From contig NZ_LWHJ01000022.1 of the NCBI RefSeq assembly GCF_001652725.1, positions 248,001 through 312,000 on the forward strand: a stretch of 64,000 nucleotides of DNA. The letters are read 5' to 3'. This document shows positions 9,970 to 38,994 of the stretch, one piece after another. The stretch comes from Pedobacter psychrophilus (lineage in GTDB: Bacteria; Bacteroidota; Bacteroidia; Sphingobacteriales; Sphingobacteriaceae). A program made the position numbers and the translations under genes. The notes below the pieces were generated by a model that was given only the letters and a program-made list of their open reading frames with translations, had not been told where the DNA came from and did no database searches. Within the stretch, counting starts at the first letter, position 1. Each line of letters opens with the position of its first letter.

Positions 9970-9986
9970 AACCATGTTATTTATTT

Positions 9987-10060
9987 GCGTTAGGGATAGA
10001 AACGACATCCTTTTTTGGTTTTCACAAAAAAGATATAGTGGATAGCCCGTAAAAACGCCC
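9987..10060 (+). repeat. Dispersed GCGTTA...AACGCC element, copy 1
   Basis: Begins GCGTTAGGGATAGAAACGAC and ends GATAGCCCGTAAAAACGCCC, with a T-rich/A-rich hairpin in the middle (TTTTTTGG...CACAAAAAA). Related copies lie at 28525-28599, 35862-35952 (reverse), 55169-55264 (reverse) and 61347-61423. The ends pair (GCGTT with AACGC, GGG with CCC). Confidence 0.8.
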
Positions 10061-22652: not shown

Positions 22653-23347
22653 ATGAAAAATGTTATTTTTTTAATTTTCATATTCCTCACAGTCAACTCT
22701 TTTGCTCAAAGCGAAAAAACGTTGGGTTTTGGTTTTAAAATAGGCATAGGAAAGGCTACAGTAGCTTATAATAAAACAACAAATGCTTCGCTTTCAGCTA
22801 ATAATTCTGATGTTATTTCTGCTTTTTTAAATTATTCAATAAACGAAAAATTAAATTTTCAATCTGGCTTATCTTACCTTAGTAAGGGGGTTATTTCAAT
22901 TGAAGAAATGTCGGATAATACAGGTGGAAGTTTTTTTTATTCTTATAGATTAACGGCTGTAAGAATATCATATATAGAATTACCGCTCAACGCAGTGTTA
23001 AAATTACCACTAAGTGTAATGGAAAGGTTTTGTTAGGAGGAGGGCCATATTTAGCTTATGCGATTGCAGGTAATGCAGAAATATACACTAGTACCATTAC
23101 AAACGTAAATTCTTTTGTCGAAGATAGAGAAAAAAGAGACATTAATTATGGAAATGAAATGTCAGATGATTTTAGTCCATTTGATTTAGGTTTAAATTTT
23201 TTAGTGGGATATCAAATAAAAAAAGGTTGGCTTTTGAACTTTAATTACTCTCAAGGTATAGCTAATATTTTACCAAAGAAGCAAAGAGTTAATGAAATTA
23301 AAGCAATTAATGGGGCTTTTCAGATTTGTTTAGGTTACGAGTTTTAA
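22653..23347 (+). pseudogene. PorT-like outer-membrane beta-barrel protein, frameshifted
   Basis: Reading 22653 onward gives a signal peptide (MKNVIFLIFIFLTVNSFAQ) and barrel strands to ISYIELPLNAVLKLPLS, then a premature stop at 23034-23036. The next frame carries on NGKVLLGGGPYLAYAIAG and ends in a barrel-type GAFQICLGYEF at 23347. The two join smoothly if one base is restored near 23012 (agtgtaatgg, for example a lost G). The intact protein would have about 231 residues and resemble small outer-membrane beta-barrel (PorT-family) proteins. It is either a recent pseudogene or a sequencing error; the lack of other damage argues for a very recent or artificial break. Confidence 0.82.
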
Positions 23348-23429
23348 TCTGCAAATTTTAAGGATTTAACATATTTCCTTAACTCTTTTTTGAATGATTG
23401 AGCTGTATTGGAATCATCTTAAGCCTCAC

Positions 23430-23460
23430 AAAAAAACCGGCGATAAATCGCCGGCCTTTC
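23430..23460 (-). terminator. Terminator of the branched-chain amino acid operon
   Basis: CCGGCGAT and ATCGCCGG form an 8 bp GC-rich stem, followed on the minus strand by a T run. It lies 30 bp after the leuB stop and ends the 15 kb ilv-leu cluster. Confidence 0.9.
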
Positions 23461-23487
23461 TAACTTAGGTTGGTTGGTATTAAGATT

Positions 23488-24546
23488 TTAAATATTTTTG
23501 GCTAACCAATCACCAACTGCATTGGTTCCGTAAGCTTTGTTTTTTCCAGACAAATCTTCGGTTACAATTCCTTCAGCCAAAGATTTATTCACAACCTCTC
23601 TAATTGCATCAGCTTCTGCTTGTAAGCCAAAAGCATCTTCAAACATCATTGCAGCAGATAAAACTGTTGCCAAAGGATTTGCTATATCTTTTCCTGTTGC
23701 TTGTGGATAGGAACCGTGAATTGGTTCGTACAAAGAAGTATGTAAACCTTTAGAAGCCGATGGCATTAATCCCATAGAACCTGAAATCACAGAAGCTTCA
23801 TCCGTTAAAATATCACCGAAAAGGTTTTCTGTTATTAAAACATCATAAGAATTTGGCCATTGTACCAATCGCATTGCTACTGCATCCACAAACTCATAAG
23901 AAACAGTAACTTCTGGATAATCTTTTTCCATATCCTGTACGGTTTCTCTCCATAAACGAGAGGTTTCTAAAACGTTGGCTTTATCTACACAGCATAGTTT
24001 TTTACCACGAGTCATTGCAATTTCAAAACCCATTTTTGCCAAACGTTGTATTTCAAAACGAGTATAGGTACAAGTATCAAAAGCGGTATTACCATCGTCT
24101 TTTCTTCCTCTTTCGCCGAAGTAAATTCCGCCTGTTAATTCACGTAAAATGATTAAGTCAGTTCCTTCAATTCTTTCTCTTTTTAAAGGAGAATTATCAA
24201 TTAAAGAAGGGAAAGTAAAAGTTGGACGTACATTGGCAAATAATCCCAATTTCTGACGCATCTTTAATAATCCTTGCTCCGGACGTATCTTTGCTTTTGG
24301 GTCGTTATCATACTTTGGATGACCAATTGCACCAAAAAGAACAGCATCTGCAGCCAAACAAACTTCATGAGTTGAGTCTGGATAAGGTTCTCCGCAATCA
24401 TCAATGGCGCAAGCACCAGTTAATGCGGAAGTCCAATTAATTTCGTGGTTATATTTTACTGCAATGGCATCACAAACTTTCACTGCTTGTGCTATTACTT
24501 CTGGTCCAATTCCGTCTCCTGCAAGCAGGGCAATGTTTAGTTTCAT
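23488..24546 (-). CDS. leuB: 3-isopropylmalate dehydrogenase
   Basis: A 352-residue NAD-dependent enzyme that oxidises and decarboxylates 3-isopropylmalate, the third step of leucine synthesis. It begins with LNIALLAGDGIGPEVIAQAVKV and shows the family blocks FGAIGHPKYD, ELTGGIYFGERGRKDD, CVDKANVLETSRLWRE, and the metal and cofactor region YEPIHGSYPQATGKDIANPLAT. Length is standard. It is the last gene of the ilv-leu cluster, 94 bp after the LeuA paralog across a GT-rich inverted repeat. Confidence 0.96.
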   Translation of the reverse strand: MKLNIALLAGDGIGPEVIAQAVKVCDAIAVKYNHEINWTSALTGACAIDDCGEPYPDSTHEVCLAADAVLFGAIGHPKYDNDPKAKIRPEQGLLKMRQKLGLFANVRPTFTFPSLIDNSPLKRERIEGTDLIILRELTGGIYFGERGRKDDGNTAFDTCTYTRFEIQRLAKMGFEIAMTRGKKLCCVDKANVLETSRLWRETVQDMEKDYPEVTVSYEFVDAVAMRLVQWPNSYDVLITENLFGDILTDEASVISGSMGLMPSASKGLHTSLYEPIHGSYPQATGKDIANPLATVLSAAMMFEDAFGLQAEADAIREVVNKSLAEGIVTEDLSGKNKAYGTNAVGDWLAKNI

Positions 24547-24555
24547 TTTTTTTAG

Positions 24556-24625
24556 TTTTTTAGTATTTAGTTTGTTGGTTTGTTAGATTTAGTCGGTCCA
24601 ACCAACTAACAACCTAACCAACTTT
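24556..24625. repeat. GT-rich/AC-rich inverted repeat between leuB and the LeuA paralog
   Basis: Plus-strand gtttgttggtttgttag (about 24567-24584) is complementary in part to ccaaccaactaacaacctaac (about 24600-24620), so the spacer can fold. Similar GTTTGTTGG/CCAACTAAC arrays lie at 26856-27010 and, as single arms, at 28625-28665. Confidence 0.65.
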
Positions 24626-24640
24626 TATAGGTTCTTGATA

Positions 24641-26230
24641 CTAGCTACTAGATACTTCTTCTTGTTTCTGCAAATCATCTTGATTCTTGCTACTTGGCTC
24701 TTGCATCTTTCCCTCCATAATATTCAACATTTTTTCAGTTGCTTTTATAGCACAAACAGTTTGATCAGAGTCTAAACCACGAGTTTTAAAAGTTTTTTTA
24801 TTTGTTTGCCAAGTGATGGTAGTTTCGCAAAGTGCATCTGAACTACTACCTGGAGCAATATGTACCACATAATCAATAAGGGCAGGAAGAATTCTTCCTT
24901 GAGCTTTATAGATATAGCTTAATGCTAACATAAAAGCATCAAATTGTCCATCGCCTTGGGCATGTTCTTCAAAAATTTGACCGTTAAAATTTATAGCAAT
25001 AGTGGCTGAAGGGCGTAATCCTTTAGAGTGAGAAAGCACATAAGACTCCACTTTTACTTTATCCTGATGGGTATGGCTAGCTAAAACATCAGAAATAATA
25101 TAAGGTAAATCATCTTGGGTTACCGTTTCTTTTAAATCGCCCAATTCAATTACTCTTTGGGTAACTTTCTTTAAATCAGCTTCATTCAATTTTAAACCTA
25201 ATTCTTGAAGATTCTTCTCGATATTAGCTTTTCCAGAAGTTTTACCTAAAGCATAAGTGCGTTTCCTACCAAAACGTTCTGGCAACAAATCGTTAAAATA
25301 AAGATTCTTTTTATTGTCACCATCTGCATGGATACCAGCAGTTTGTGTGAATACATTCTCACCAACAATTGGTTTATTCGCCGGAATGCGAACTCCAGAA
25401 AATGTCTCAACCAATTTACTTACTTTATAAATGGAAGACTCTTTTAATCCAATTTGTACTTCGGGTAAAAAATCATTAATTACCGCTATTACGCTTGCCA
25501 TTGGGGCATTTCCAGCTCTTTCTCCCATTCCATTTACCGTTAAATGTAAACCATCAATCCCTGCTTTTACAGCTTCTAAAGCATTTGCAGTGCCCAAATC
25601 ATAATCATTATGAGCGTGAAAATCGAAATGTGTATTGGGATATTTTTCTTTAATATCTTTTAAGAAAACATAAGTTTCATCAGGAGTTAAAACGCCTAAA
25701 GTATCAGGCAATAAAATTCTTTCTATGGGTTGGGTAACTAAAAAATCAAGGTATTGAAAAACATAAGCTTGAGAATTTCGCATTCCATTACTCCAATCTT
25801 CTAAATATACATTGGTTTTGATTCCTTCTTTTGATGCTGAATCAATAACATTTTTAATTTCTGCAAAATGTTTTTCGGGTGTTTTTTTAAGCTGATGTTT
25901 TAAGTGATTTAATGAACCTTTTGTTAATAAATTTTGAACTTTAACACCTGCTTGCAACATCCAATCAATAGAAACGCCATTATCTACAAAAGTTAAAACT
26001 TCCACTTTTTGTAAATGTCCGTTGTTGGCAGCCCATTTAGTAACTGCTTTTACGGCGCCAAGTTCCCCTTCAGAAACCCTTGCAGAAGCAATTTCAATCC
26101 GATCCACATTCAATTCCTCTAGCAAAAGTTGAGAAATTGTCAGCTTTTCGGCAATGGAAAAAGAGACACCAGAGGTTTGTTCGCCATCCCTCAGCGTAGT
26201 ATCCATTATTTCTATCTTTCTTGCTTTCAT
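24641..26230 (-). CDS. LeuA-family paralog (2-isopropylmalate or citramalate synthase type)
   Basis: A 529-residue acyl-CoA condensing enzyme. The TIM barrel starts [37 protein letters not shown] and NGMGERAGNAP are the metal and active-site blocks, and the C-terminal third is the LeuA dimer/allosteric domain (GQFDAFMLALSYIYKAQGR). A second copy beside true leuA is common in this phylum. (R)-citramalate synthase (CimA, a threonine-free route to isoleucine) is the likeliest role, but sequence by eye cannot settle the acyl-CoA used. The last 20 residues (EPSSKNQDDLQKQEEVSSS) are encoded by an intergenic repeat type and are probably a foreign tail. Confidence 0.85.
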   Translation of the reverse strand: MKARKIEIMDTTLRDGEQTSGVSFSIAEKLTISQLLLEELNVDRIEIASARVSEGELGAVKAVTKWAANNGHLQKVEVLTFVDNGVSIDWMLQAGVKVQNLLTKGSLNHLKHQLKKTPEKHFAEIKNVIDSASKEGIKTNVYLEDWSNGMRNSQAYVFQYLDFLVTQPIERILLPDTLGVLTPDETYVFLKDIKEKYPNTHFDFHAHNDYDLGTANALEAVKAGIDGLHLTVNGMGERAGNAPMASVIAVINDFLPEVQIGLKESSIYKVSKLVETFSGVRIPANKPIVGENVFTQTAGIHADGDNKKNLYFNDLLPERFGRKRTYALGKTSGKANIEKNLQELGLKLNEADLKKVTQRVIELGDLKETVTQDDLPYIISDVLASHTHQDKVKVESYVLSHSKGLRPSATIAINFNGQIFEEHAQGDGQFDAFMLALSYIYKAQGRILPALIDYVVHIAPGSSSDALCETTITWQTNKKTFKTRGLDSDQTVCAIKATEKMLNIMEGKMQEPSSKNQDDLQKQEEVSSS

Positions 26231-26249
26231 TTTAAAAATGTTTTAAAAA

Positions 26250-26846
26250 TTAAATTGGCAAAGCCGATGCAAATTCTTGTATATCAGATTTTATGTTTTG
26301 AAGATAATCGATATCATCAAAGCCGTTTATCATATTGTCTTTTTTGTAAGAACTGATTTCAAAACTTTCCTTTTCTCCAGTTGCTACTAATGAAATGGTT
26401 TGTGCTGCTAAATCAATTTCTATTTCAGTTTCGGGATTTTTATGAACTGCAGAAAAAATGGTCTCCATAAATTCTGGACTGATTTGAACTGGCAAAACAC
26501 CGATATTTAAGCAATTACCTCTAAAAATATCTGCAAAGAAACTGGAAACTACCGCTCTAAAACCGTAATCGTAAATTGCCCAAGCTGCATGTTCTCTTGA
26601 AGAACCCGAGCCAAAGTTTTTCCCTCCTAAAAGAATTTTCCCTTTATAAATTGGATTGTTTAAAACAAAATCCGCTTTAGGCGAACCATCTGTATTGTAT
26701 CTCCAATCTCTAAATAAATTATCTCCAAAACCCACACGCTCTGTTGCTTTTAAAAAACGAGCTGGGATGATTTGGTCGGTATCTACATTTTCTATAGGAA
26801 GTGGAACCGCTGTAGTTTTTAATATTGTGAATTTATCGTATGCCAT
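26250..26846 (-). CDS. leuD: 3-isopropylmalate dehydratase small subunit
   Basis: A 198-residue subunit that forms isopropylmalate isomerase with LeuC. The motifs VDTDQIIPARFLK near residue 20 and GGKNFGSGSSREHAAWAIYDYGFRAVVSS near 75-100 are diagnostic of the swivel domain that completes the active site. Length is standard. It lies 167 bp after leuC, an unusually long gap filled by a repeat array, and 19 bp before the LeuA paralog. Confidence 0.96.
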   Translation of the reverse strand: MAYDKFTILKTTAVPLPIENVDTDQIIPARFLKATERVGFGDNLFRDWRYNTDGSPKADFVLNNPIYKGKILLGGKNFGSGSSREHAAWAIYDYGFRAVVSSFFADIFRGNCLNIGVLPVQISPEFMETIFSAVHKNPETEIEIDLAAQTISLVATGEKESFEISSYKKDNMINGFDDIDYLQNIKSDIQEFASALPI

Positions 26847-26855
26847 TTTATTTTA

Positions 26856-27010
26856 GTTTGTTAGGTTTTAGTTTGTTGGTTTGTTGGTTTGTTAGGCTTT
26901 TTAAGTGGCTAACTAAACCGTCAACTAAATTCTAAATTATATATTATTGTTAGTTTGTCAGGTTATTTAGTGTGTTCGGCCCTAACAGCCTAACCAACTA
27001 ACAACCCAAC
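26856..27010. repeat. GT-rich and AC-rich inverted repeat array between leuC and leuD
   Basis: Tandem gtttgttggtttgttggt-type units (about 26860-26900) face cctaaccaactaacaaccc-type units (about 26985-27010), with a second smaller gttagtttgtcaggtta near 26950. In the transcript the two sides can form a long imperfect stem. No open frame is credible. Confidence 0.7.
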
Positions 27011-27013
27011 CAT

Positions 27014-28423
27014 CTAACTAACTAATTCTTCCATTAATTCCCTCGGGTCTGTTACTTTTCCGGTTACTGCTGCTGCTGCTGCAACTAGTGGGCTTGCCAA
27101 TAAAGTTCTAGAACCAGGACCTTGTCTGCCTTCAAAGTTTCTGTTTGAAGTACTTACTGCATATTTACCAGCCGGAATTTTATCGTCATTCATGGCTAAA
27201 CAAGCAGAACAGCCAGGCTGACGCAATACAAAACCTGCTTCTGTGAAAATATCTAATAAACCTTCGTCCTTAATCGCAGCTTCTACAATATGAGAACCTG
27301 GAACTAACCAAGCAGTTACATTATCAGCTTTATGGCGACCTTTTACAATAGAAGCAAAAGCTCTAAAATCTTCAATACGTCCGTTTGTGCAACTCCCAAT
27401 AAATACATAATCTACAGGTTTGCCAATCATATGGTCGCCTTGGTTAAAGCCCATATAATTTAATGACTTCTCATAAGTAGCAACTCCACCTTCAATAGCA
27501 TCGGCATCTGGAATATCTTGTGAAATTCCGATTCCCATTCCTGGGTTTGTACCGTAAGTAATCATGGGCTCAATTTCAGAACCTGCAAATGTATATTCCT
27601 TATCAAAAACTGCATCATCATCAGTTTTTAAAGTTTTGTAATAAGCTAAAGCTTTATCCCAAGCTTCTCCTTTTGGAGTGAATTCTCTACCTTTTACATA
27701 TTCAAAAGTAGTTTCATCCGGAGCAATCATACCACCTCTTGCGCCCATTTCTATCGAAAGGTTACAAACCGTCATACGGCCTTCCATTGTCATTTCTTCA
27801 AAAACTTTTCCTGCATATTCAACAAAATATCCCGTTGCGCCAGAAGTAGAAAGTTTAGAAATAATAAATAAAGCCACATCTTTTGGTGTTACCCCAAAGC
27901 CTAAATCACCAGTGATATTGATACGCATTTTTTGCGGTTTAGGCTGCATAATACATTGTGTTGCCAAAACCATTTCTACTTCAGAAGTACCAATTCCAAA
28001 AGCAATCGCTCCAAAAGCGCCATGAGTAGAAGTATGAGAATCACCGCAAACAATGGTTGCACCGGGTTGTGTAATGCCATATTCTGGACCTACAACATGT
28101 ACAATTCCATTTTTTTGATGACCTAAGCCCCAATGAGAAATTCCGTATTCATTAGAATTTGATTCCAGAGCTTTTAACTGATTAGCTGAAAGCGGGTCTT
28201 CTACCGGTAAATGCTGATTAATAGTTGGCGTATTATGATCTGCCGTTGCGAAAGTAAGCTCGGGATATAAAACCTTAATTCCTCTGCTTTTTAGCCCCAA
28301 AAATGCAACCGGACTGGTTACCTCGTGAATCATGTGACGGTCAATGAAAAGCACATCTGGTCCTCCTTTAATCTTTTTAACTACGTGGCCGTCCCACACT
28401 TTGTCAAATAATGTATTACTCAT
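27014..28423 (-). CDS. leuC: 3-isopropylmalate dehydratase large subunit
   Basis: A 469-residue aconitase-family enzyme with a 4Fe-4S cluster that isomerises isopropylmalate. Visible are [16 protein letters not shown], the [14 protein letters not shown] substrate block, and the cluster cysteines in FIGSCTNGR and [10 protein letters not shown]. The start is the ATG at 28423 ([13 protein letters not shown]); the longer frame would read through the hairpin repeat at 28456-28514 and is rejected. Upstream of it lie two repeat families between leuA and leuC. Confidence 0.97.
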
Positions 28424-28455
28424 TTTATTTGTTTTTACTCTTTTATATTTTCCAT

Positions 28456-28514
28456 GGTCTGTGTCCTCACAGACCATTTATTTTTTTGTTTCGAACTGTG
28501 AAACACACAGACCG
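28456..28514. repeat. Paired GTCTGTG hairpins upstream of leuC
   Basis: GGTCTGTG (28456-28463) pairs with CACAGACC (28468-28475) around TCCT. A second hairpin, ACTGTG around AAACA with CACAG, lies at about 28494-28511 and is followed by ACCGAGG. Two related hairpins with opposite flanks suggest a REP-like unit distinct from the neighbouring GCGTTA element. Confidence 0.75.
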
Positions 28515-28524
28515 AGGTTGATTT

Positions 28525-28599
28525 GCGTTAGGGATTGAAGCGGCAGCTTTTTTTGCTTTTCAGCAAAAAACTATAGTGTAAAGCCCGCCCGAACGCCCC
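28525..28599 (+). repeat. Dispersed GCGTTA...AACGCC element, copy 2
   Basis: Begins GCGTTAGGGATTGAAGCGGC and ends AAAGCCCGCCCGAACGCCCC with a central TTTTTTTGC/GCAAAAAA hairpin. It lies between leuA and leuC, next to the GTCTGTG hairpins. Its terminal pairing is GCGTT with AACGC and GGG with CCC. Confidence 0.82.
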
Positions 28600-28667
28600 A
28601 ATAAGATTTCAATTTTTTAAAATTGCTAAGTACTAACCACCTAACGAACTAATAACTAACCAACTAC

Positions 28668-30176
28668 TTAAATAAACTTATTCACCGCATCTAAATAAGC
28701 GTTTGCCGATGCCTGCACAATATCTGTACTGAAACCGTAACCGTTATAGTTTTTATCCAAATACTTAATTCTCATATTTACTTTACTCACATCATCGCTA
28801 CCGCCTTCAATTGCTTCAATATTGAATGTTTTAATGGCAATTTCTTTCTCTAAAATAGAATTGATGGCTTTAATTGTTGCATCAACAGGGCCGTTTCCTG
28901 ATGAAGTTGCTTCATACATTACGCCCTTAATATCTAATTTGATAATTGAAGTTGGAATCAGTGGATCACCACACATTACTTGTAACAATTTCACGGTAAC
29001 ACCTGCTTTGTAATTACGCTCAGTGCCATCGCTCATTAATAATAGCAGGTCGTCGTCTTTTATTTCTTTCTTCTTATCTGCAACCGTTAAAAACCGTTCA
29101 TAAACATCATCTAAATTGATTTTATCAATCACATATCCTAATCTTTCTAAATGGTGTTTTAAAGCATGTCGGCCGCTTCTTGCGGTTAAAATAATCTCAG
29201 ATTGGTCAATTCCAACATCTTCTGGATTGATGATTTCATAGTTTTCACGATGTTTTAAAACACCATCCTGATGAATTCCAGAACTATGTGCGAAAGCGTT
29301 TTTACCTACAATTGCTTTGTTAGGTTGAACTGGCATTCTCATCATTCTGCTCACCATTCCGCTCAACTCGTAAAAATGTTTAGAGTTGATATTGGTATGC
29401 TTATTTAAAGTTTGATGTGTTCTTAAAATCATTGCCACTTCCTCTAAAGAAGTATTTCCGGCTCTTTCTCCAATTCCGTTAATGGTACATTCTGCCTGGC
29501 GAGCACCATTTTGGATACCCGCAATGGTATTTGCAGTAGCCAAACCTAAATCGTTATGGCAATGCACAGAAATGATCGCTTTATCAATATTGGAAACATG
29601 ATCCATCAAATATTTGATTTTTGCGCCATATTGGTCGGGTAAGCAATAACCATTGGTATCCGGAATATTTACCACCGTCGCACCGGCGGCAATTACCGCT
29701 TCCACCATTTGCGCTAAAAATTCATTGTCCGCTCTTCCGGCATCTTCTGCATAAAACTCAATATCTTCTACATACTTTTTGGCGTATTTAACAGCATCAA
29801 CTCCACGTTGTAAAATATCTTCTCGGGTGCTGTTAAATTTATATTTGATATGCATATCCGAGGCGCCAATACCCGTATGAATACGTGGTCTTTTGGCATA
29901 TTTTAAAGAATCTGCGGCTACATCTATATCATTTTTATTAGCTCTGGTTAAAGCACAAATAATAGGTTCTGTTATCGCTTTGGAAAGTTCTACAACACTA
30001 TTAAAATCTCCAGGACTAGATACCGGAAATCCTGCTTCAATTACATCCACACCCAAAGCTTCCAGTCGCAGTGCAATTTCTACTTTTTCAGAAGTTGTTA
30101 ACTGGCAACCGGGCACTTGTTCTCCATCACGTAAAGTGGTGTCGAAAATATAAATTCTATTTGGATCGTGTAACAT
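28668..30176 (-). CDS. leuA: 2-isopropylmalate synthase
   Basis: A 502-residue enzyme that condenses acetyl-CoA with 2-ketoisovalerate, the first committed step of leucine synthesis. The catalytic start is [38 protein letters not shown] and [17 protein letters not shown] carry metal ligands; the C-terminal LeuA_dimer domain covers about 370-500. The start is taken at the ATG at 30176 ([12 protein letters not shown]). A GTG 12 bases upstream lies within the palindromic repeat and is rejected. A repeat (30182-30229) directly precedes it. Confidence 0.96.
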
Positions 30177-30181
30177 GTTTA

Positions 30182-30229
30182 GCCTCACCCCCCAGCCCCC
30201 TCTCCAAAAGGAGAAGGGAGACTGGGTGG
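30182..30229. repeat. Single-arm GC-rich palindrome upstream of leuA
   Basis: CCCAGCCCCCTCTCC faces GGAGAAGGGAGACTGGG around AAAA. It is one arm of the family whose two-armed copies are at 4887, 9327 and 31759; the GCCTCACC outer end is present. It lies 6 bp before the leuA ATG and would put a strong hairpin next to the ribosome-binding region. Confidence 0.8.
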
Positions 30230-30248
30230 ATTTTATTTGTTGTTAAAT

Positions 30249-31754
30249 TTATATTGTTAACTCAAAGTCTTTTATAGTTTCTTTGAGTGTTAAATTTTTA
30301 TTTTTTATTTCTGAAATTTCTTTCACTTCTCCGTTTTCCAAAACCATTCTCTTCTCTAGACAAGACGGCAATTGTGATTCAAAATGACCGACATAAATCA
30401 CAGTCATCCCATTCGAACAAACTTTATCTATCAACTGATTAAAATAAGCAGTTTGCTGATTATCTAATCCCTGGCAAGGTTCATCCAAAACCAATAATTC
30501 TGGATTTTTGATGATGGTTCTGGCTAATAAAACCAGGCGTTGTTTGCCTAAAGGCAGCGTATTTAATAAGTCGTTATTGTTTTCGGTTAAACCGAAAAAA
30601 TTAATTAATTCATCTACTTGTGCTTTTTTAGAGTAGGGTAAAGTTTTAAATAAACCTACCGAATCATACAAGCCTGACGCTACACTTTCCAAAACGGTGG
30701 AGTTTGCATCAAAATACCAATGAAACTCTGGAGATATTAAACCGATATGTTGTTTAATATCCCATATGCTTTCACCACTTCCTCTTTTGTTGCCGAATAA
30801 ATACAATTCGTTGGCATAAGATTGTGGATGGTCGCCATTAATTAAACTTAACAAAGTAGATTTTCCGGAACCATTTGGCCCTTGTAGTAACCATCTTTCA
30901 CCAGCTCTCACTTCCCAATTGATGTTTTTTAACACTTCCTTTTCGCCATAGCTGATATTTACATCAACCATTTTTGCGATTAAACCGGAAGAATAAATAG
31001 GAGCTTGTTTTAAAAATTCGGGAATTTCTCCCAATTCATAATTTGAGTTTGTAAAAGCTTTTTCTAGAGCAGAAATTTCTTCTAATTTTCCACCTGTAAT
31101 TTTTGCAAAACGATTGATACATATTGGTAATTCTTCATCATTAGAAATGATGATTAAAGAAACACCTTCTGCGCAAACATCATTTAACAAAGCATTTAAA
31201 CTTTCTCTGGATTTAACATCCAAACCTGTGTAAGGCTGGTCGATAATTAACAACTGAGGTTTTAACCACAAAGCTTTTACCAACTGTAATTTTTTATGTT
31301 CGCCACTTGATAATTCTATCAATTGAGAATTCTTTAATCCGGCAAAGCCTAAAGCATTTAAAATCGGTTCCACATCGGCGAAAGCCAAATGATTTTCTTT
31401 ACCGTAATGAGCCAATTCTGCTTTTACGGTTAAAGTTTCTTTAGCTTGCTGTGAAGTATATCGCTGTTGATAATAGAAATTAGCAACACCTTCCACATTT
31501 TTGAATTGATACCAACTTTCGACCAATGAAACTTTTGCAGGCAATTGAATCTCGTTATCAAAATTGATTTCAATTTTTCCAGCATAATCTGCTAAGCCAG
31601 TAATCGCTTTCGCTAAGGTTGTTTTTCCGCTTCCGCTGATGCCAGATAAAACCCATTGTTCTCCTTTTTGGATAGTCCAGCTCAAATCATCAAACACCGA
31701 ATTGCTTTGGTATTTGAAATTTAAATTTTCGATATGGACTTTGGGTCTCTGCAT
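30249..31754 (-). CDS. Duplicated ABC ATPase, ModF/PhrA-like, inside the ilv-leu cluster
   Basis: A 501-residue protein with two ATP-binding cassettes and no membrane segment. Cassette 1 has Walker A SGISGSGKTTLAK, a deviant signature LSSGEHKKL and Walker B LLIIDQPYTGLD. Cassette 2 has GPNGSGKSTLLS, signature LPLGKQRLV and LLVLDEPCQGLD. The layout matches ModF/PhrA-type soluble double ABC proteins, whose role is unclear; it need not be a transporter. The ATG at 31754 (MQRPKVHIENLNF) is chosen because the frame further upstream comes from the repeat at 31759-31900. Around residue 116 the segment ENHLAFADVEP recalls the repeat peptide of the acidic protein at 139-2250. Confidence 0.88.
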   Translation of the reverse strand: MQRPKVHIENLNFKYQSNSVFDDLSWTIQKGEQWVLSGISGSGKTTLAKAITGLADYAGKIEINFDNEIQLPAKVSLVESWYQFKNVEGVANFYYQQRYTSQQAKETLTVKAELAHYGKENHLAFADVEPILNALGFAGLKNSQLIELSSGEHKKLQLVKALWLKPQLLIIDQPYTGLDVKSRESLNALLNDVCAEGVSLIIISNDEELPICINRFAKITGGKLEEISALEKAFTNSNYELGEIPEFLKQAPIYSSGLIAKMVDVNISYGEKEVLKNINWEVRAGERWLLQGPNGSGKSTLLSLINGDHPQSYANELYLFGNKRGSGESIWDIKQHIGLISPEFHWYFDANSTVLESVASGLYDSVGLFKTLPYSKKAQVDELINFFGLTENNNDLLNTLPLGKQRLVLLARTIIKNPELLVLDEPCQGLDNQQTAYFNQLIDKVCSNGMTVIYVGHFESQLPSCLEKRMVLENGEVKEISEIKNKNLTLKETIKDFELTI

Positions 31755-31758
31755 TTTT

Positions 31759-31900
31759 GGCCTCACCCTAACCCTCTCCAAAGGAGAGGGAATTAGAGCT
31801 TGAATGTTTTGTGTATTATTATTATTATTTAATTTTTGCCGTTTACTTTTCCATAAAGCCCCCCTCTCTTTCGGAGAGGGGAATTAAAGGGGTAAGGCTC
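31759..31900. repeat. Two-armed GC-rich palindromic element between ilvC and the ABC ATPase
   Basis: The left arm GGCCTCACCCTAACCCTCTCC... has the stem CCCTCTCCAAAGGAGAGGG (31772-31790). The right arm has CCCCTCTCTTTCGGAGAGGGG (about 31860-31881) and ends AAAGGGGTAAGGCTC. The outer ends are inverted repeats around a 65 bp AT-rich spacer. This is the clearest full-length copy (about 142 bp) and abuts the ilvC stop codon at 31901. Confidence 0.88.
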
Positions 31901-33382
31901 TTAATTCGTTTTAATCGCTTTCATGGCAGTCATCGCTTGGCGCAAAACCGCTCCAACTTTTTCTACTTGATGCGTTCTGATAGCTTCGTTCACTTCAATT
32001 AATTTTCTGTTATCCACACCGCCATCTTTACCTTCATTAAAGTTTTTACCTACTAAATCAGTATCAACTTTTTTCATGAAGTCAGCTAATAATGGTTTAC
32101 AAGCCTGGTCGAACAAATAGCAACCATATTCTGCAGTATCAGAAATTACACGATTCATCTCAAACAATTTCTTTCTAGCAATGGTATTCGCGATTAGCGG
32201 TGCTTCATGTAAAGATTCATAATAAGCAGATTCTGGTTTAATGCCAGCCTGAACCATCGTTTCAAAAGCCAATTCAACACCTGCTCTGATGAAAGCAACC
32301 ATTAAAGTATAGTTATCAAAATATTCTTGCTCTGAAATCTTCACATCGCCTGCAGGAGTTTTTTCGAATGCAGTTTCGCCAGTTTCGGCTCTCCATTTCA
32401 ATAAATTTTTATCGCCATTTGCCCAATCTTCCATCATGGTTTTGCTGAACTCACCACTCATGATATCATCCTGATGTTTTTGGAATAAAGGACGCATGAT
32501 GTCTTTCATTTCCTCAGAAATTTCGAAAGCTTTGATTTTTGCAGGATTACTTAATCTATCCATCATCGCAGTGATACCACCTTGCTTTAAAGCTTCAGTA
32601 GTTACTTCTACTCCATATTGAACCAATTTAGAAGCATAACCAGCATCAATTCCTTTTTCTATCATTTTATCAAATGATAAAATAGAACCTGTTTGCAATA
32701 AACCACAAAGAATGGTTTGCTCGCCCATTAAATCTGATTTTACCTCAGCAACAAAAGAAGACAATAAAACACCAGCTTTATGCCCGCCTGTACCTACTGC
32801 ATAAGCTTTTGCTTGCGCTAAACCTTTTCCTTGTGGGTCGTTTTCTGGGTGAACTGCAATTAAAGTGGGAACTCCAAAACCTCTTACATATTCTGCTCTA
32901 ACTTCAGAACCTGGGCATTTTGGCGCAACCATAATAACAGTAATATCTTTACGGATTTGCATTCCTTCTTCAACAATATTGAAACCATGAGAATAAGAAA
33001 GCGTTGCATCTTTTTTCATTAATGGCATCACCGCATTCACAACTGAAGTGTGCTGTTTATCAGGAGTTAGATTGATTAAAATATCAGCTGTTGGAATTAA
33101 TTCTTCATAAGTACCAACCTTGAAATTGTTTTCGGTAGCATTTTTCCAAGAATCCCTTTTACCTTCTATTGCTTCTTTACGTAAAGTGTAACTTACATCT
33201 AAACCGCTATCACGTAAGTTTAAACCTTGATTTAATCCTTGCGCTCCGCAACCAATTATTACTAATTTTTTTCCTTTTAATGCTTCTACTCCATCAGCAA
33301 ACTCGCTGATATCCATAAATTCACAAACTCCTAATTGGTTTAATTGCTCTCTAAGTGGTAATGTGTTAAAATAGTTTGACAT
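31901..33382 (-). CDS. ilvC: Ketol-acid reductoisomerase (class II)
   Basis: A 493-residue NADPH enzyme that isomerises and reduces acetolactate and acetohydroxybutyrate in valine and isoleucine synthesis. The Rossmann loop is [20 protein letters not shown] near residue 43; [20 protein letters not shown] and [13 protein letters not shown] are KARI blocks. The length and the second C-terminal knotted domain ([21 protein letters not shown]) mark the long, E. coli-like class II. It follows ilvN after 48 bp. Confidence 0.97.
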
Positions 33383-33430
33383 TGTTTTTTGTTAAATCGT
33401 TTATAATCTATTGTCCATAGTTTTGGACTT

Positions 33431-34033
33431 TTACATTGTAAATACTTTTTGTCCTTTGTTTAAATATTCGTTTTCAATTACATCCTCTCCAGGTTCTAAT
33501 CTTTCAAATTCACGTAGTTTAGCATGAAAGCCATCACTATCTTTAATAATAGCTACTCTTGCACTCCTTACAAATTCTATCAATCCATATTGTTGTAAAA
33601 CTTCTACTAAAGCATCTGTTTCTTCTCGGTGTCCGGTAGTTTCAAAAACCGTATAATCTTTACGGATAACTACAGCCCTTGCGCCATATTCACGCAGTAA
33701 ACGTTCCACACTTACATGTTCGGCAATTATATCTGTTGGTACTTTATAAAGTGCCAATTCTTGCCAAATTACATCTTCGTTAGTGTTGAAATATACTTTC
33801 AAAACCTCCACTTGCTTTTCTAACTGGCGGGCAACTTTCTTTACTACATCTTCCGTTTCGTTTATCACGATATTGAATCTGTGAATACTTTCAACTTCAG
33901 ACGGAGAAGTATTCAAACTTTCTACATTTAGCTTTCTCCTGCTAAAGATAATAGCGATTCTGTTTAATAAACCAATTTGGTTTTCGGTATAAACTGTGAT
34001 GTTATATTCCTTCTTTTCTATATTTGAATCCAT
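33431..34033 (-). CDS. ilvN: Acetolactate synthase small (regulatory) subunit
   Basis: A 200-residue regulatory subunit of acetohydroxyacid synthase that confers valine feedback. The N-terminal ACT domain is visible (YNITVYTENQIGLLNRIAIIFSRRKLNVESLN, residues 8-40), followed by the C-terminal ACT-like half (ARAVVIRKDYTVFETTGHREETDALV). It is slightly longer than the E. coli IlvH protein. It lies 63 bp after ilvB; a short GC-rich repeat fills the gap. Confidence 0.94.
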   Translation of the reverse strand: MDSNIEKKEYNITVYTENQIGLLNRIAIIFSRRKLNVESLNTSPSEVESIHRFNIVINETEDVVKKVARQLEKQVEVLKVYFNTNEDVIWQELALYKVPTDIIAEHVSVERLLREYGARAVVIRKDYTVFETTGHREETDALVEVLQQYGLIEFVRSARVAIIKDSDGFHAKLREFERLEPGEDVIENEYLNKGQKVFTM

Positions 34034-34061
34034 TTTAAATCAATTTTTTGTTTCCCTTATG

Positions 34062-34095
34062 TCATCCCCTTTTAGGGGAATGAGGGGCGGGATGG
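34062..34095. repeat. Short degenerate GC-rich hairpin between ilvB and ilvN
   Basis: CATCCCCTTTTAGGGGAATG is a compact hairpin followed by AGGGGCGGGATGG. It resembles a reduced arm of the palindromic family at 30182 and 31759, though the identity is weak. Confidence 0.55.
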
Positions 34096-34096
34096 A

Positions 34097-35836
34097 TTAT
34101 TTAAGTCTAATTTCTGAAACGCTGCAACCTTGAGGCACCATTGGGAAAACGTTGTTTTCTTTGGTTACCATCACTTCTAAAAGGTATGAGCCTTTATGGT
34201 TAAGCATCGTTTCTAAAGCTCCAACTAAGTTTTCTCTTTCTGATACTTTTTGCCCTTCAATGTAATAACCTTTTGCAACGGCTACAAAATCAGGACTAGT
34301 GATATCGACAAAAGAATATCTTTTATCGTTAAACAATTCTTGCCATTGGCGTACCATGCCTAAAAATTGATTATTTAAAATCATGATTTTAACATCAATA
34401 CCACTTTGCATAATGGTGCCTAATTCTTGGATGGTCATTTGGAAACCGCCATCACCAATAACCGCTACTACTGTTTTATCAGGGGCGCCAAATTTAGCGC
34501 CGATAGCTGCAGGTAAGGCAAATCCCATCGTTCCTAAACCGCCACTGGTAATATTACTACGAGTATGATTAAATTTAGCGTATCGGCAAGCCACCATTTG
34601 GTGCTGACCAACATCAGTAACAATAATGGCATCACCTTTAGTCAAAATATTTAATTGATTGATGACCTCGCCCATGGTTAATTCACCACTTGTTGGGTTA
34701 CATTCTGCATCAATTACTTGGTCAATTTCTTTTTGTGTAAAATCCCTAAATTTTGCTAACCATTCGTCGTGAGATTTTTCCTCAACTAAAGCAGTTAACA
34801 GAGGTAAGGTTTCCTTACAATCGCCCCAAACCGGAACTTCTGCTTTTACATTTTTATCAATTTCAGCAGGGTCAATATCCAAATGGATAACTTTCGCTTG
34901 CCTTGCGTATTTGTCTAAACGGCCTGTAACACGGTCATCAAAACGCATCCCAATGGCAATTAAAACATCGCATTCATTGGTTAAAACATTAGGTCCATAA
35001 TTGCCATGCATACCCAACATTCCAACATTTAAAGGATGGTCGGTAGCAATTGCTCCAGCACCTAAAATAGTCCAAGCAGAAGGTATTCCAGCTTTTTCTA
35101 CAAAAGCTTGAAACTCTTTTTCTGCATTACCTAATAGAATACCTTGTCCAAATAAAACGAAAGGTTTTTTAGCGCTATTGATTAAAGCAGCAGCCTTTTC
35201 AATATAATTTTGACGAACAATTGGATAAGGGCGGTAACTTCTAATGTGCTCACATTTCTGATAAGCTTCAACTTCAACTTTTTGAATTTGAGCATTTTTA
35301 GTAATATCAATCAAAACCGGACCTGGGCGACCAGATTTGGCGATATAAAATGCTTTAGCCAAAACTTCAGGGATTTCCGAAGCATCAGTAACCTGATAAT
35401 TCCATTTGGTGATTGGCGTAGTGATATTAATCACATCAGTTTCTTGAAAAGCATCAGTACCTAAAAGTGAAGCAAAAACTTGCCCTGTAATACACACCAT
35501 TGGCGTACTGTCAATTTGCGCATCTGCAATTCCGGTAATTAAATTTGTGGCACCTGGTCCGCTAGTTGCAAACACAACTCCAACTCTTCCAGATGAACGA
35601 GCATAACCTTGTGCAGCATGTGTTGCGCCTTGCTCATGACGTACTAAAATATGATTTAGCTCTTTTTTGAAATCATAAAGCGCATCATAAATAGGCATAA
35701 TAGCACCTCCCGGGTAACCGAAAATAGTATCTACACCTTCTTCAATCAAACCTTTTAGCAAAATTTGAGAACCTGATAATTCCTCAGTAGCAACTGATTC
35801 TTTTGTTTGTTTATCGTTTATTTCAAGTGTATCCAT
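34097..35836 (-). CDS. ilvB: Acetolactate synthase large subunit
   Basis: A 579-residue thiamine-diphosphate enzyme making acetolactate or acetohydroxybutyrate. GYPGGAIMPIYDAL and the ThDP glutamate in VRHEQGATHAAQGYARSSGRVG lie in the N-terminal domain; the ThDP/Mg motif VIGDGGFQMTIQELGT with ILNNQFLGMVRQWQELF lies near residue 455-490. The start is the ATG at 35836, one codon inside a GTG. It sits between ilvD (gap of 120 bp holding a GCGTTA element) and ilvN. Confidence 0.96.
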   Translation of the reverse strand: MDTLEINDKQTKESVATEELSGSQILLKGLIEEGVDTIFGYPGGAIMPIYDALYDFKKELNHILVRHEQGATHAAQGYARSSGRVGVVFATSGPGATNLITGIADAQIDSTPMVCITGQVFASLLGTDAFQETDVINITTPITKWNYQVTDASEIPEVLAKAFYIAKSGRPGPVLIDITKNAQIQKVEVEAYQKCEHIRSYRPYPIVRQNYIEKAAALINSAKKPFVLFGQGILLGNAEKEFQAFVEKAGIPSAWTILGAGAIATDHPLNVGMLGMHGNYGPNVLTNECDVLIAIGMRFDDRVTGRLDKYARQAKVIHLDIDPAEIDKNVKAEVPVWGDCKETLPLLTALVEEKSHDEWLAKFRDFTQKEIDQVIDAECNPTSGELTMGEVINQLNILTKGDAIIVTDVGQHQMVACRYAKFNHTRSNITSGGLGTMGFALPAAIGAKFGAPDKTVVAVIGDGGFQMTIQELGTIMQSGIDVKIMILNNQFLGMVRQWQELFNDKRYSFVDITSPDFVAVAKGYYIEGQKVSERENLVGALETMLNHKGSYLLEVMVTKENNVFPMVPQGCSVSEIRLK

Positions 35837-35861
35837 CACTTATTTATTTTTAAATATTTTT

Positions 35862-35952
35862 GGGCGTTTTAACACGCTATCCACTTTATCTTTTTTGCCA
35901 TTTTGCATTATGGCTATAGGCAAAAAAGGATGCCGCTTCTATCGTTAACGCA
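35862..35952 (-). repeat. Dispersed GCGTTA...AACGCC element, copy 3 (reverse orientation)
   Basis: On the minus strand it starts GCGTTAACGATAGAAGCGGC and ends GTGGATAGCGTGTTAAAACGC. The middle hairpin is GCCTTTTTTGCC-like with a longer loop. The stem triplet is ACG with CGT instead of the GGG with CCC seen in copies 1 and 2. Confidence 0.82.
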
Positions 35953-35956
35953 AAAA

Positions 35957-37636
35957 CTAATCCTCATCAGTAACACAACCTTCCGTTGCATTTTTTACCA
36001 GTTTATAATATTTGTACAAAACACCACTTTTTACTTTTGGTCCCGGTTTAATCCAAGCAGCTCTTCTTTTAGCAATTTCTTCCTCACTCACTATTAAATT
36101 AATAGTGTTGGTTGTCGCACTTATTTCAATGATGTCATTATCCTCAATAATTCCAATATTTCCACCTTCTACAGCTTCTGGAGTAATGTGTCCAACTACA
36201 AAACCATGTGTTCCACCAGAAAAACGACCATCTGTAATCAAAGCAACCGAAGCACCTAAACCTGCGCCATAAATCGCTGAGGTTGGTTTTAACATTTCTG
36301 GCATTCCCGGTGCGCCTTTTGGTCCAGAGTTTTTGATAACTACCACATCTCCAGCTTTTACTTTTCCAGATGATATTCCAGCAATCAGTTCAAACTCTCC
36401 ATCAAAAACACGGGCTGGACCTGTAAATGATTCACCTTCTTTTCCACTGATTTTAGCTACTGAACCTAAAGTTGCAATGTTTCCATAAAGCATTTGTAAA
36501 TGCCCAGTCGCTTTTATAGGCTTTTCTAACGGACGAATAATATCTTGTTCTTCAAAATCTAAATCTTTAGCTTCAGCAACATTTTCTGCCATTGTTTTAC
36601 CAGTAACAGTTATACAATCGCCATGAAGCAAACCTTTTTTCAAAAGATATTTCATAATAGCTGGCATACCACCCATGTTATGCACATCTTCCATTAAGTA
36701 TTTACCGCTTGGTTTTAAATCTGCAATTACAGGGGTTTTATCACTTATATCTTGGAAATCTTTTAATGTTAAACTCAATCCTACAGATTTTGCCATTGCA
36801 ATTAAGTGCAATACCGCATTGGTAGAACCGCCCAAAACCATTACGATAATCAAAGCATTATGAAATGCTTTTTGGGTCATGATGTCTTTTGGCTTAATGT
36901 CTTTTTCTAATAAAATCTTGATGTATTTACCAGCTTCTAAACATTCGTTCTTTTTCTCTTCGCTTAAAGCGGGATAAGAAGAACTATATGGCAAACTCAT
37001 TCCCATTGCTTCTATTGCAGATGCCATTGTATTTGCAGTGTACATTCCTCCACAAGCACCCGCACCCGGACAAGAGTTTTCAATTACACCTTGATAATCT
37101 TCATCAGAAATATTCCCGGCTAGTTTTTTACCTAAAGCTTCAAATGCAGAAACGATATTTAATTCTTCTCCTTTATAATGACCAGGGTGGATGCTTCCGC
37201 CGTAAACCATAATACTTGGACGGTTCAATCTTCCCATTGCCATAATAGAACCGGGCATATTTTTATCGCAACCAGGAATTGCAATTAATCCATCATAATA
37301 ATGTCCAGCGCAAACTGCCTCGATAGAATCTGCAATTAAATCACGAGAAACTAAAGAGTAACGCATCCCTTCCGTCCCGTTTGTTAAGCCATCACTTATG
37401 CCAATGGTATTGAAAGTTAATCCGACTAAGTTTTTATTCCAAACCCCTTTTTTAACGATTGCTGCTAAATCATTTAGGTGCATATTACAAGTGTTACCAT
37501 CATAACCCATACTTGCAATGCCTACCTGAGGTTTTTTTAAGTCTTCAGTAGTTAACCCAATACCGTACAACATAGCTTGAGTAGCCGGTTGGGTTTTATC
37601 TTGTGTAAATGTTTTACTGTATTTATTTAATTCCAT
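35957..37636 (-). CDS. ilvD: Dihydroxy-acid dehydratase
   Basis: A 559-residue iron-sulfur enzyme dehydrating dihydroxy acids to 2-keto acids in valine and isoleucine synthesis. Cluster ligands are in CNMHLNDLA (near residue 50), [19 protein letters not shown] (near 121) and [20 protein letters not shown] (near 190); the C-terminal [16 protein letters not shown] block is present. The ATG abuts the ilvE stop directly (TAAATG), giving tight translational coupling. Confidence 0.97.
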
Positions 37637-38524
37637 TTATATAAAAACTTCAAAACTTAATTTATCTAATACTAGACTTTTGTAAACCCTTTGTATGCTT
37701 GCGCCGATGCTATCTTGAAATAATAATTGAAATATAGTTTCATCTATTGATTTGATACCTATAATTTCTACAGCAGTTCCACACAGAAATGCAGCATCAG
37801 CAGCTTTAAATTCTTCAAGTGAAATATTTTTCTCTATCACCTCTATATCTAATTGATTTGCAATTTGCACCACAGAGTTTCTAGTAATCCCTGCCATTAT
37901 ATTTCCTTTTTGTGGCGTGTAAAGTTTTCCTGCTTTTTCTATAAAGACATTTGCTGAGGTAGATTCGGCAACAAAACCATTCATATCTAGTAAAATAGCT
38001 TCATCAAACCCTCTTATTTTAGCTTCGTTAATTGCTAAAACAGAATTCAAATAATTTCCAGTTATTTTAACATCAATTGGTGTTGAATTAGGATTTGGCT
38101 TTTCATAAGAAGAAACGCAAGTTTTAAGCAAATCATCTCCATAAAAGCTATTCCATTCCCAAGCAATCATCACCAAATGAGATTTTGCATCACTTACCAT
38201 ATCCATACCCTCATTAGCAAAAACAAGAGGTCTTATGTATGCGTTTTTTAAATTATTTTCCTCTAATAATTGGTAAGCATCTTTAATCAATGTTGTAACG
38301 TCCCAATCAAAATCCAGATTTATTTTTTCACAAGATTTTTTTAATCTTTCAAAATGTTCTTTGGCTTTAAAAATCTTTGTTCCATTGGAGGTTGTATAAG
38401 ATCTTAACCCTTCAAAAGCACCATAACCATATTGTGTAGTTTGGCTTTTAAAGTCGATTATGTTTTCAGTATCATTTATAAATGAACCGTTAAGATATAT
38501 GATTTTACTTTGTGATATTTTCAT
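37637..38524 (-). CDS. ilvE: Branched-chain amino acid aminotransferase
   Basis: A 295-residue class IV PLP aminotransferase that carries out the last step of Ile, Leu and Val synthesis. Features are QYGYGAFEGLRSYTTSNG near residue 32, the PLP lysine in DVKITGNYLNS near 155, and the phosphate-binding IMAGITRNSVVQIA near 210. It is the first structural gene of the cluster. The preceding 150 bp contain the predicted leader peptide and terminator, so its expression and that of the genes behind it probably depend on attenuation. Confidence 0.96.
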   Translation of the reverse strand: MKISQSKIIYLNGSFINDTENIIDFKSQTTQYGYGAFEGLRSYTTSNGTKIFKAKEHFERLKKSCEKINLDFDWDVTTLIKDAYQLLEENNLKNAYIRPLVFANEGMDMVSDAKSHLVMIAWEWNSFYGDDLLKTCVSSYEKPNPNSTPIDVKITGNYLNSVLAINEAKIRGFDEAILLDMNGFVAESTSANVFIEKAGKLYTPQKGNIMAGITRNSVVQIANQLDIEVIEKNISLEEFKAADAAFLCGTAVEIIGIKSIDETIFQLLFQDSIGASIQRVYKSLVLDKLSFEVFI

Positions 38525-38544
38525 TTTAAAAATGGATATCTTTT

Positions 38545-38578
38545 ATATAAAAAACGCCTTCTTTTTGGGAAGGCGTTT
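38545..38578 (-). terminator. Attenuator terminator upstream of ilvE
   Basis: On the minus strand AAACGCCTTC (38578-38569) pairs with GAAGGCGTTT (38561-38552) around CCAAAAA, followed by TTTATAT, a rho-independent terminator only 20-30 bp before the ilvE ATG. A terminator between a promoter region and the first gene of an amino acid operon is a mark of attenuation. Confidence 0.88.
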
Positions 38579-38595
38579 AGAAAATATTTAATGTT

Positions 38596-38670
38596 TTATT
38601 TTATACACGCCTTCATATTTTTGCTAATCAGTAGCAAATTAATAATTCTAATAATGGTGACGTTTTGCAT
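38596..38670 (-). CDS. Predicted Ile/Leu/Val-rich leader peptide of the ilv-leu operon
   Basis: A 24-codon frame with ATG at 38670 and TAA at 38598-38596. It reads MQNVTIIRIINLLLIS, then KNMKACIK. In codons 4-15, nine of twelve residues are Val, Ile or Leu. The codons for KAC and the preceding M contain GAAGGCGT (38614-38607), which is identical to the 3' arm of the terminator at 38561-38554 and can pair with its 5' arm ACGCCTTC (38576-38569) to make an 8 bp antiterminator. Stalling at branched-chain codons would leave this arm free; translation to the stop would cover it and let the terminator form. This is the classical ilv design known from enterobacteria. No measured data support it here, but position, codon content and alternative pairing all agree. 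Confidence 0.85.
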   Translation of the reverse strand: MQNVTIIRIINLLLISKNMKACIK

Positions 38671-38944
38671 TTTTTGGTTTTTTATAATTTGATATACTCA
38701 ATATAGTGGATGTAATTATATCATCCTATACTTTATAAAATAAATCTCAAAAAAAATATAATTTTATTTATTAAGGATTGACAAAATATAATTTCTTATA
38801 ATTTTCTTTGTTTGCGCTTATATTTCCAATTATTTAGACTAAACAACGAATTGGTTTTCGGTATACTTTATTATGCTAGCATAGTAATCGTTAGTTTTCT
38901 GCCTAAACTTTATGTGACGTTTAAATATTTTGAAAAATAAGTCA
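38671..38944. other. AT-rich non-coding stretch upstream of the ilv leader
   Basis: No gene is seen here. It should hold the promoter of the leader on the minus strand; no convincing pair of -33 TTTG and -7 TAnnTTTG boxes was found. A hairpin (TATAG GATG with CATC CTATA, about 38700-38733) and the perfect 12 bp palindrome TATGCTAGCATA (38872-38883) are present. The latter resembles CTATGCTTGCATAATAA just after the promoter at 41002-41009. Confidence 0.5.
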
Positions 38945-38971: not shown

Positions 38972-38994
38972 CAAAATCTTTTTAATGATGTTTA

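Follow-up and report, generated by a model that had tools for sequence, protein, structure and literature searches.

A predicted leader-peptide attenuator before the ilv–leu cluster of Pedobacter psychrophilus and similar layouts across Bacteroidota

What controls transcription of the branched-chain amino acid genes that begin with ilvE in Pedobacter psychrophilus? The window, by which we mean the whole stretch of 64,000 nucleotides analyzed here, had previously been interpreted from its letters alone (the sequence-only reading), and that reading placed an Ile/Leu/Val transcription attenuator of the enterobacterial kind at the head of an 11-gene ilv–leu cluster.

Leader, competing pairings and downstream genes

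The structural claims of that reading hold in the window. The 24-codon leader with nine Val, Ile or Leu residues in codons 4–15 is present on the minus strand, with its ATG at 38670, 24 sense codons and a stop codon at 38598–38596. The 3' arm of the terminator, said to be repeated within the leader codons, is found at both 38614–38607 and 38561–38554, and the T-tailed terminator placed about 30 bp before ilvE is a hairpin followed by T6, with the ilvE ATG 27 nt downstream. The features of this region are as follows.

38699..38705, minus strand: promoter-like -7 element TATATTG, which precedes the leader ATG by about 35 nt and was recognized with the upstream sequences of 14 congeners
38596..38670, minus strand: leader peptide frame MQNVTIIRIINLLLISKNMKACIK plus stop codon, from frame translation
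38626..38661, minus strand: control codons 4–15 (V T I I R I I N L L L I), nine of them Ile, Leu or Val
38607..38614, minus strand: region 2, GAAGGCGT, the antiterminator 5' arm within leader codons 19–22, pairing with region 3
38569..38576, minus strand: region 3, ACGCCTTC, the arm common to the antiterminator (with region 2) and the terminator (with region 4)
38554..38561, minus strand: region 4, GAAGGCGT, the terminator 3' arm, followed by T6
38552..38578, minus strand: intrinsic terminator with a 10-bp stem and a T tail; its end lies 27 nt ahead of ilvE

Given that the antiterminator (2:3) and the terminator (3:4) share region 3, the two pairings are mutually exclusive. The terminator at 38578–38552 is also the best minus-strand terminator-like site within 23000–38700. 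Upstream of the leader, the -7-like element reads TATCTTG in most of the congeners (14 upstream sequences), and a TTG lies about 20 nt further upstream in most of them, although it is weak in the window. This conserved, promoter-like element resembles the Bacteroidota -7 consensus TAnnTTTG given in PMC9723704 and would start the RNA some 20 nt ahead of the leader. The start context of the leader is A-rich and does not contain a Shine–Dalgarno sequence.

All eleven genes of the proposed cluster were found behind the terminator.

37637..38524, minus strand: ilvE, branched-chain aminotransferase, at the head of the cluster
35957..37636, minus strand: ilvD
34097..35839, minus strand: ilvB
33431..34033, minus strand: ilvN/ilvH
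31901..33382, minus strand: ilvC
30249..31781, minus strand: double ABC-type ATPase (ModF-like) with no obvious role in the pathway
28668..30188, minus strand: leuA
27014..28477, minus strand: leuC, the true start probably near 28423, as judged from the N-terminus
26250..26846, minus strand: leuD
24641..26230, minus strand: citramalate/isopropylmalate synthase-like gene (cimA-like)
23488..24546, minus strand: leuB-like gene, last in the cluster, assigned from its translation without a family scan

The genes downstream of the leader therefore belong to the pathway that it would sense (ilvEDBNC, leuACD, the cimA-like gene and the leuB-like gene), and a terminator scan found no strong terminator inside the cluster. 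The ModF-like double ABC ATPase interrupts the pathway genes mid-cluster, with ilvC on one side and leuA on the other. The listed start of leuC is probably too far upstream, and an inverted repeat, ATGGTCTGTGT...ACAGACCAT, lies there (28423–28477). The Flavo-1 RNA (RF01705) has three matches in the window (35866–35956, minus strand; 28520–28594, plus strand; 9979–10056, plus strand), two of which fall within the ilv–leu cluster, one in the sense orientation in the ilvD/ilvB gap and the other antisense in the leuA/leuC gap.

Folding of the leader RNA agrees with a switch between the two pairings. Without a ribosome, the minimum-energy form contains the antiterminator pairing, which also forms readily (-19.4 kcal/mol) when the RNA is folded up to region 3 alone. 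When a ribosome is placed at the stop codon in constrained folding, the terminator alone forms, whereas the antiterminator is best when the ribosome is stalled at codon 15; by geometry and constrained folding, a ribosome at the stop codon would hide region 2 and one on the control codons would leave it free. At equilibrium, little energy separates the two states for a ribosome stalled at codon 14 or 15, and earlier stalls slightly favor the terminator, so that the switch must depend on the order in which the RNA is made. Inside the leader, a protector (1:2) hairpin gives a weak average signal (mean z -1.2).

Chance expectation, conservation and rival readings

We searched for the layout with a detector that requires an ATG-initiated frame of 10–45 codons, at least seven Ile, Leu or Val codons within 12 codons, and then a T-tailed hairpin. 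On both strands of the 64-kb window its single match is the ilvE leader, and 487 kb (strand-bases) of other DNA from the same genus gave zero matches. Across 906 kb of strand-bases from named Bacteroidota contigs, 58 of 80 loci had a match before ilvE, and another 13 matches fell at other places. Six of the 13 are the second leaders found in five Pedobacter loci (see below), and a seventh (L059) is an extra leader-like frame that also precedes ilvE. When the 450 nt ahead of ilvE were dinucleotide-shuffled, a leader with a terminator appeared in 0 of 3000 cases and, under a criterion requiring a 6-bp antiterminator, in 1 of 3000, the two criteria differing in their stem demands. The leader RNA fold is likewise more stable than shuffles (z -3.8). 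The detector is not exhaustive, given that it misses Escherichia coli ilvL, whose terminator stem is interrupted.

Within the genus, the element precedes ilvE in 14 of 18 genomes, at one site each except for weak second matches in three. The leaders of congeners vary in sequence (for example, MLLTVTIILIVLLLIIGNKQKACVL and MLVIINLIFLLVIRLILGGMQKACFR), but the Ile/Leu/Val run and the region 2 codons are kept, the latter being mostly K-A-C (AAG GCG/GCA TGT). The leader codons were thus found to remain rich in Ile, Leu and Val in relatives while the peptide sequence changes. Frame 0 of the congener leaders is 50% Ile, Leu or Val, compared with 27% and 10% in the other frames, and is the sole stop-free frame; this comparison is descriptive more than a test, since the leader frame was chosen for these same two properties.

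Covariation of the two stems, which the sequence-only reading had named as a check, was found in part. In an alignment of 12 congeners, 94.8% of antiterminator cells are paired and the helix covaries between GCG/CGC and GCA/TGC, the third base of the Ala codon being G or A and its region 3 partner C or T; there are five double changes at this synonymous position, a score that 5 of 500 shuffles reach. The terminator helix is 92.5% paired but its arms barely covary within the genus, and its support therefore comes from turnover of sequence across families and from the T tail. The element was not detected in four small-genome congeners (L011, L012, L015, L016), nor was one detectable in Sphingobacterium or Hymenobacter, which indicates that it is dispensable. 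In members of the small-genome group (these four and L033–L035), ilvE has neither the leader nor an atpDC neighborhood.

In a sample of Bacteroidota loci from outside the Bacteroidales, about 79 of 110 have the same layout, in unrelated sequences, ahead of ilvE, compared with 0 of 1100 dinucleotide-shuffled controls. It occurs in Pedobacter, in Cytophagales (Chryseolinea, Pontibacter), in Chitinophagales (Chitinophaga, Niastella, Segetibacter) and in Flavobacteriales (Flavobacterium, Chryseobacterium, Tenacibaculum, Myroides). The duplex of regions 2 and 3 has a mean z of -3.1 relative to shuffled segments in 80 cases, 62 of which are at p ≤ 0.05. Both helices, then, are kept while sequence turns over, and across families we found no conserved sequence core, just the codon run and the two pairings. 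In most cases region 2 begins 9–13 nt past the final control codon and at most about 20 nt from the stop codon, so that a ribosome at the stop codon would cover it. Judged by sequence, a putative attenuator layout of the E. coli branched-chain type was thus found to be widespread in Bacteroidota.

The detector itself matched in 80 of the 110 loci, but the match in L022 was rejected as a false positive that lies far upstream of ilvE and carries no antiterminator signal. Many Chitinophagales (L066, L067, L068, L079, L083, L084, L102) have a nearly Leu-free leader inside a leu–ilv cluster, between leuB and ilvE.

Taken together, the frame, the exclusive pairings, the T-tailed terminator, the pathway genes, the conservation and the covariation strongly support the attenuation reading of the leader, and very probably the element controls branched-chain amino acid synthesis by ribosome-mediated attenuation of transcription. 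Any cis-regulator of a biosynthetic operon could present a structured leader and a terminator, and the element might instead bind an amino acid or a tRNA itself, as a riboswitch or T-box does, its short frame going unread. We regard this as highly improbable based on the conservation of the leader reading frame, the lack of a cross-family sequence core and the outcome of Rfam searches: at gathering score neither a T-box nor any other family matches the ilv element, a permissive search of the site returned nothing convincing (the best being Phe_leader at 23.9 bits, with a cut-off of 55), and the leaders of 13 related loci gave no match except one unrelated SAM riboswitch. Still less probable is that the hairpin is the terminator of an upstream atpDC operon and the leader frame a product of chance; atpD and atpC do lie upstream on the same strand, but atpC has its own terminator at 38972–38950, about 280 nt before the leader, the leader and hairpin persist where atpDC is not seen upstream (for example, L019, L020, L041 and L043), and the frame and antiterminator are conserved. 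Small membrane peptides exist and the leader product is a hydrophobic 24-mer, yet we give almost no credence to a functional peptide next to a terminator that yields a separate small RNA of independent function, given that the peptide is unconserved beyond its Ile/Leu/Val content and the codons encoding region 2, and that His-, Trp- and Tyr/Phe-rich equivalents before hisG, trpE and pheA fit codon sensing and not a membrane peptide.

In the attenuator that we favor, RNA polymerase would begin just upstream of 38670 and a ribosome would enter the 24-codon leader. If charged Ile-, Leu- or Val-tRNA were short, the ribosome would stall at codons 4–15, leaving region 2 free to pair with region 3 once the latter is made; region 4 would then have no partner, no terminator would form and transcription would proceed into ilvE and the genes behind it. 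If the amino acids were plentiful, the ribosome would reach the stop codon and cover region 2, region 3 would pair with region 4 and transcription would end about 30 nt before ilvE. We infer promoter use, leader translation, termination and the starvation response from the sequence, and the attenuator would presumably reach all eleven genes; the lack of a strong terminator within the cluster would agree with that reach, as would the Leu codons found in every leader with leuC behind it.

Leader composition, tandem leaders and codon choice

Leaders differ in Leu content according to the position of leuC, the placement of which on the same contig was judged from coordinates. When leuC is downstream in the same cluster, the final 14 codons of the run hold two or more Leu in 26 of 26 leaders (mean 4.9), compared with 6 of 23 (mean about 1.2) when leuC is upstream or elsewhere. 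By count this correlation has a p value of about 1e-8; however, it corresponds to about four changes on the IlvE tree and Chryseolinea contradicts it, and so it is suggestive of a loose link between the composition of a leader and the presence of leu genes behind it. Five Pedobacter loci (L031, L036, L040, L042, L045) have a second, Ile/Val-type predicted attenuator in the ilvE–ilvD gap (at about 3430–3560 in L040), an example being the leader MNLNTNIISNLIIVISQKRGGYRCV with the terminator GAAACCGCCTCC...GAGGCGGTTTT. The first leader, before ilvE, is Leu-heavy in four of these tandem loci, and L031 has a Leu-rich frame there with no detected terminator. The window has a single, mixed leader, and no gap separates its ilvE from ilvD.

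Codon choice in the leaders is also skewed. In 77 distinct leaders, Val is encoded by GTC 96 times compared with 22.6 expected from neighboring genes (z 16.9, which overstates the number of independent observations because the leaders are related), Leu by CTA 46 times compared with 14.1 expected, and Ile by ATT 334 times compared with 209 expected. For the leaders of the genus, GTC accounts for 52% of Val codons, compared with 3% in genes of the window. A check for a fixed motif behind GTC showed the codon spread over many positions within the run, but with ATT next in 55% of cases, compared with 21% for GTG, so that the choice of GTC is inseparable from a preference for GTCATT and a sequence constraint may play a part. 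The complete genome of a congener (G014) has two tRNA-Val genes, both with the anticodon UAC, and none with GAC was found; in the draft genome of P. psychrophilus itself one tRNA-Val was found, with UAC. Codon bias in E. coli leaders has been explained by selective charging of isoacceptors (PMC1183508), an explanation that cannot apply to Val when there is a single tRNA-Val acceptor.

A broader proposal, which we consider possible but less likely than not, is that branched-chain attenuation in Bacteroidota is a widespread and fast-evolving system whose codons are re-tuned to the downstream genes, with mixed Ile/Leu/Val leaders where ilv and leu genes are together, Ile/Val leaders where leu genes are elsewhere, and tandem Leu-type and Ile/Val-type leaders in some Pedobacter. 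The control codons would be chosen for slow decoding (GTC, with tRNA-Val UAC only in the complete congener) and not for isoacceptor-specific charging.

Known attenuators, other leaders and significance

The enterobacterial ilv leader logic that had been invoked for this locus is recognizable in the K-12 record of E. coli ilvL. Its leader, MTALLRVISLVVISVVVIIIPPCGAALGRGKA, has a dense Ile/Leu/Val run and ilv genes downstream, as in the window, and its region 2, GTGCGGGG, lies in leader codons right after the run and can pair with CCCCGCAC in the 5' arm of the terminator, the same arrangement as here. The two have no detectable sequence relation, the likeness being one of design, by inspection, and in the window leader a separate protector hairpin is not distinct. 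The leu genes here lie within the ilv cluster, whereas E. coli leu has its own leader.

Within the phylum, the abstract of a 2004 study by Vitreschak reportedly places branched-chain attenuators in some Bacteroidetes/Chlorobi. The transcriptome of Flavobacterium psychrophilum, of the same phylum as the window, gave strong clues that amino-acid biosynthesis operons are preceded by leader-peptide attenuators, and the structured 5' regions named in that study include pheA and hisG elements (PMC9723704). Its main text does not name an ilv leader (0 occurrences of "ilv"), and the proposed attenuators differ from the window in species and sequence. The Bacteroid-trp motif (RF01692) is a cis-regulatory RNA of Bacteroidetes (Weinberg et al. 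2010; PMC2864571) whose link to trp is by name; the trp locus of the P. psychrophilus genome has no Rfam match at E ≤ 0.1, and the ilv element does not match the motif either. Attenuation of this design is thus already known, given that E. coli ilvL works alike and that PMC9723704 proposed leader-peptide attenuation for a flavobacterium; the new details are the relation of Leu content to leu genes, the second ilvE–ilvD attenuator of five Pedobacter loci and the GTC skew.

A gene-by-gene search of the same genome revealed a His leader before hisG (MKIKLITLHHLHHHHYGVAI, L122), a Trp leader before trpE (MNKTTNTNKWWWHNKNVASVALFVF, L142) and a Tyr/Phe leader before pheA (MTKIATYYYAYFYFRDKSRA, L228), with terminators seen for the trp and phe leaders. 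These leaders have no Rfam match at E ≤ 0.1. Leader-peptide attenuation appears to be a general method of the genus.

Given that no Rfam family covers the ilv element, it goes unannotated, and a comparative set of ilv leaders could seed a family. The element offers a concrete, testable attenuator in a phylum with thin mechanistic work on amino-acid control. Translation in Bacteroidota usually starts without Shine–Dalgarno sequences, and hence the coordination of ribosome and polymerase at leaders may differ from that in E. coli. If only one tRNA-Val acceptor exists, the use of GTC with tRNA-Val UAC alone would also provide a test of what makes a control codon sensitive.
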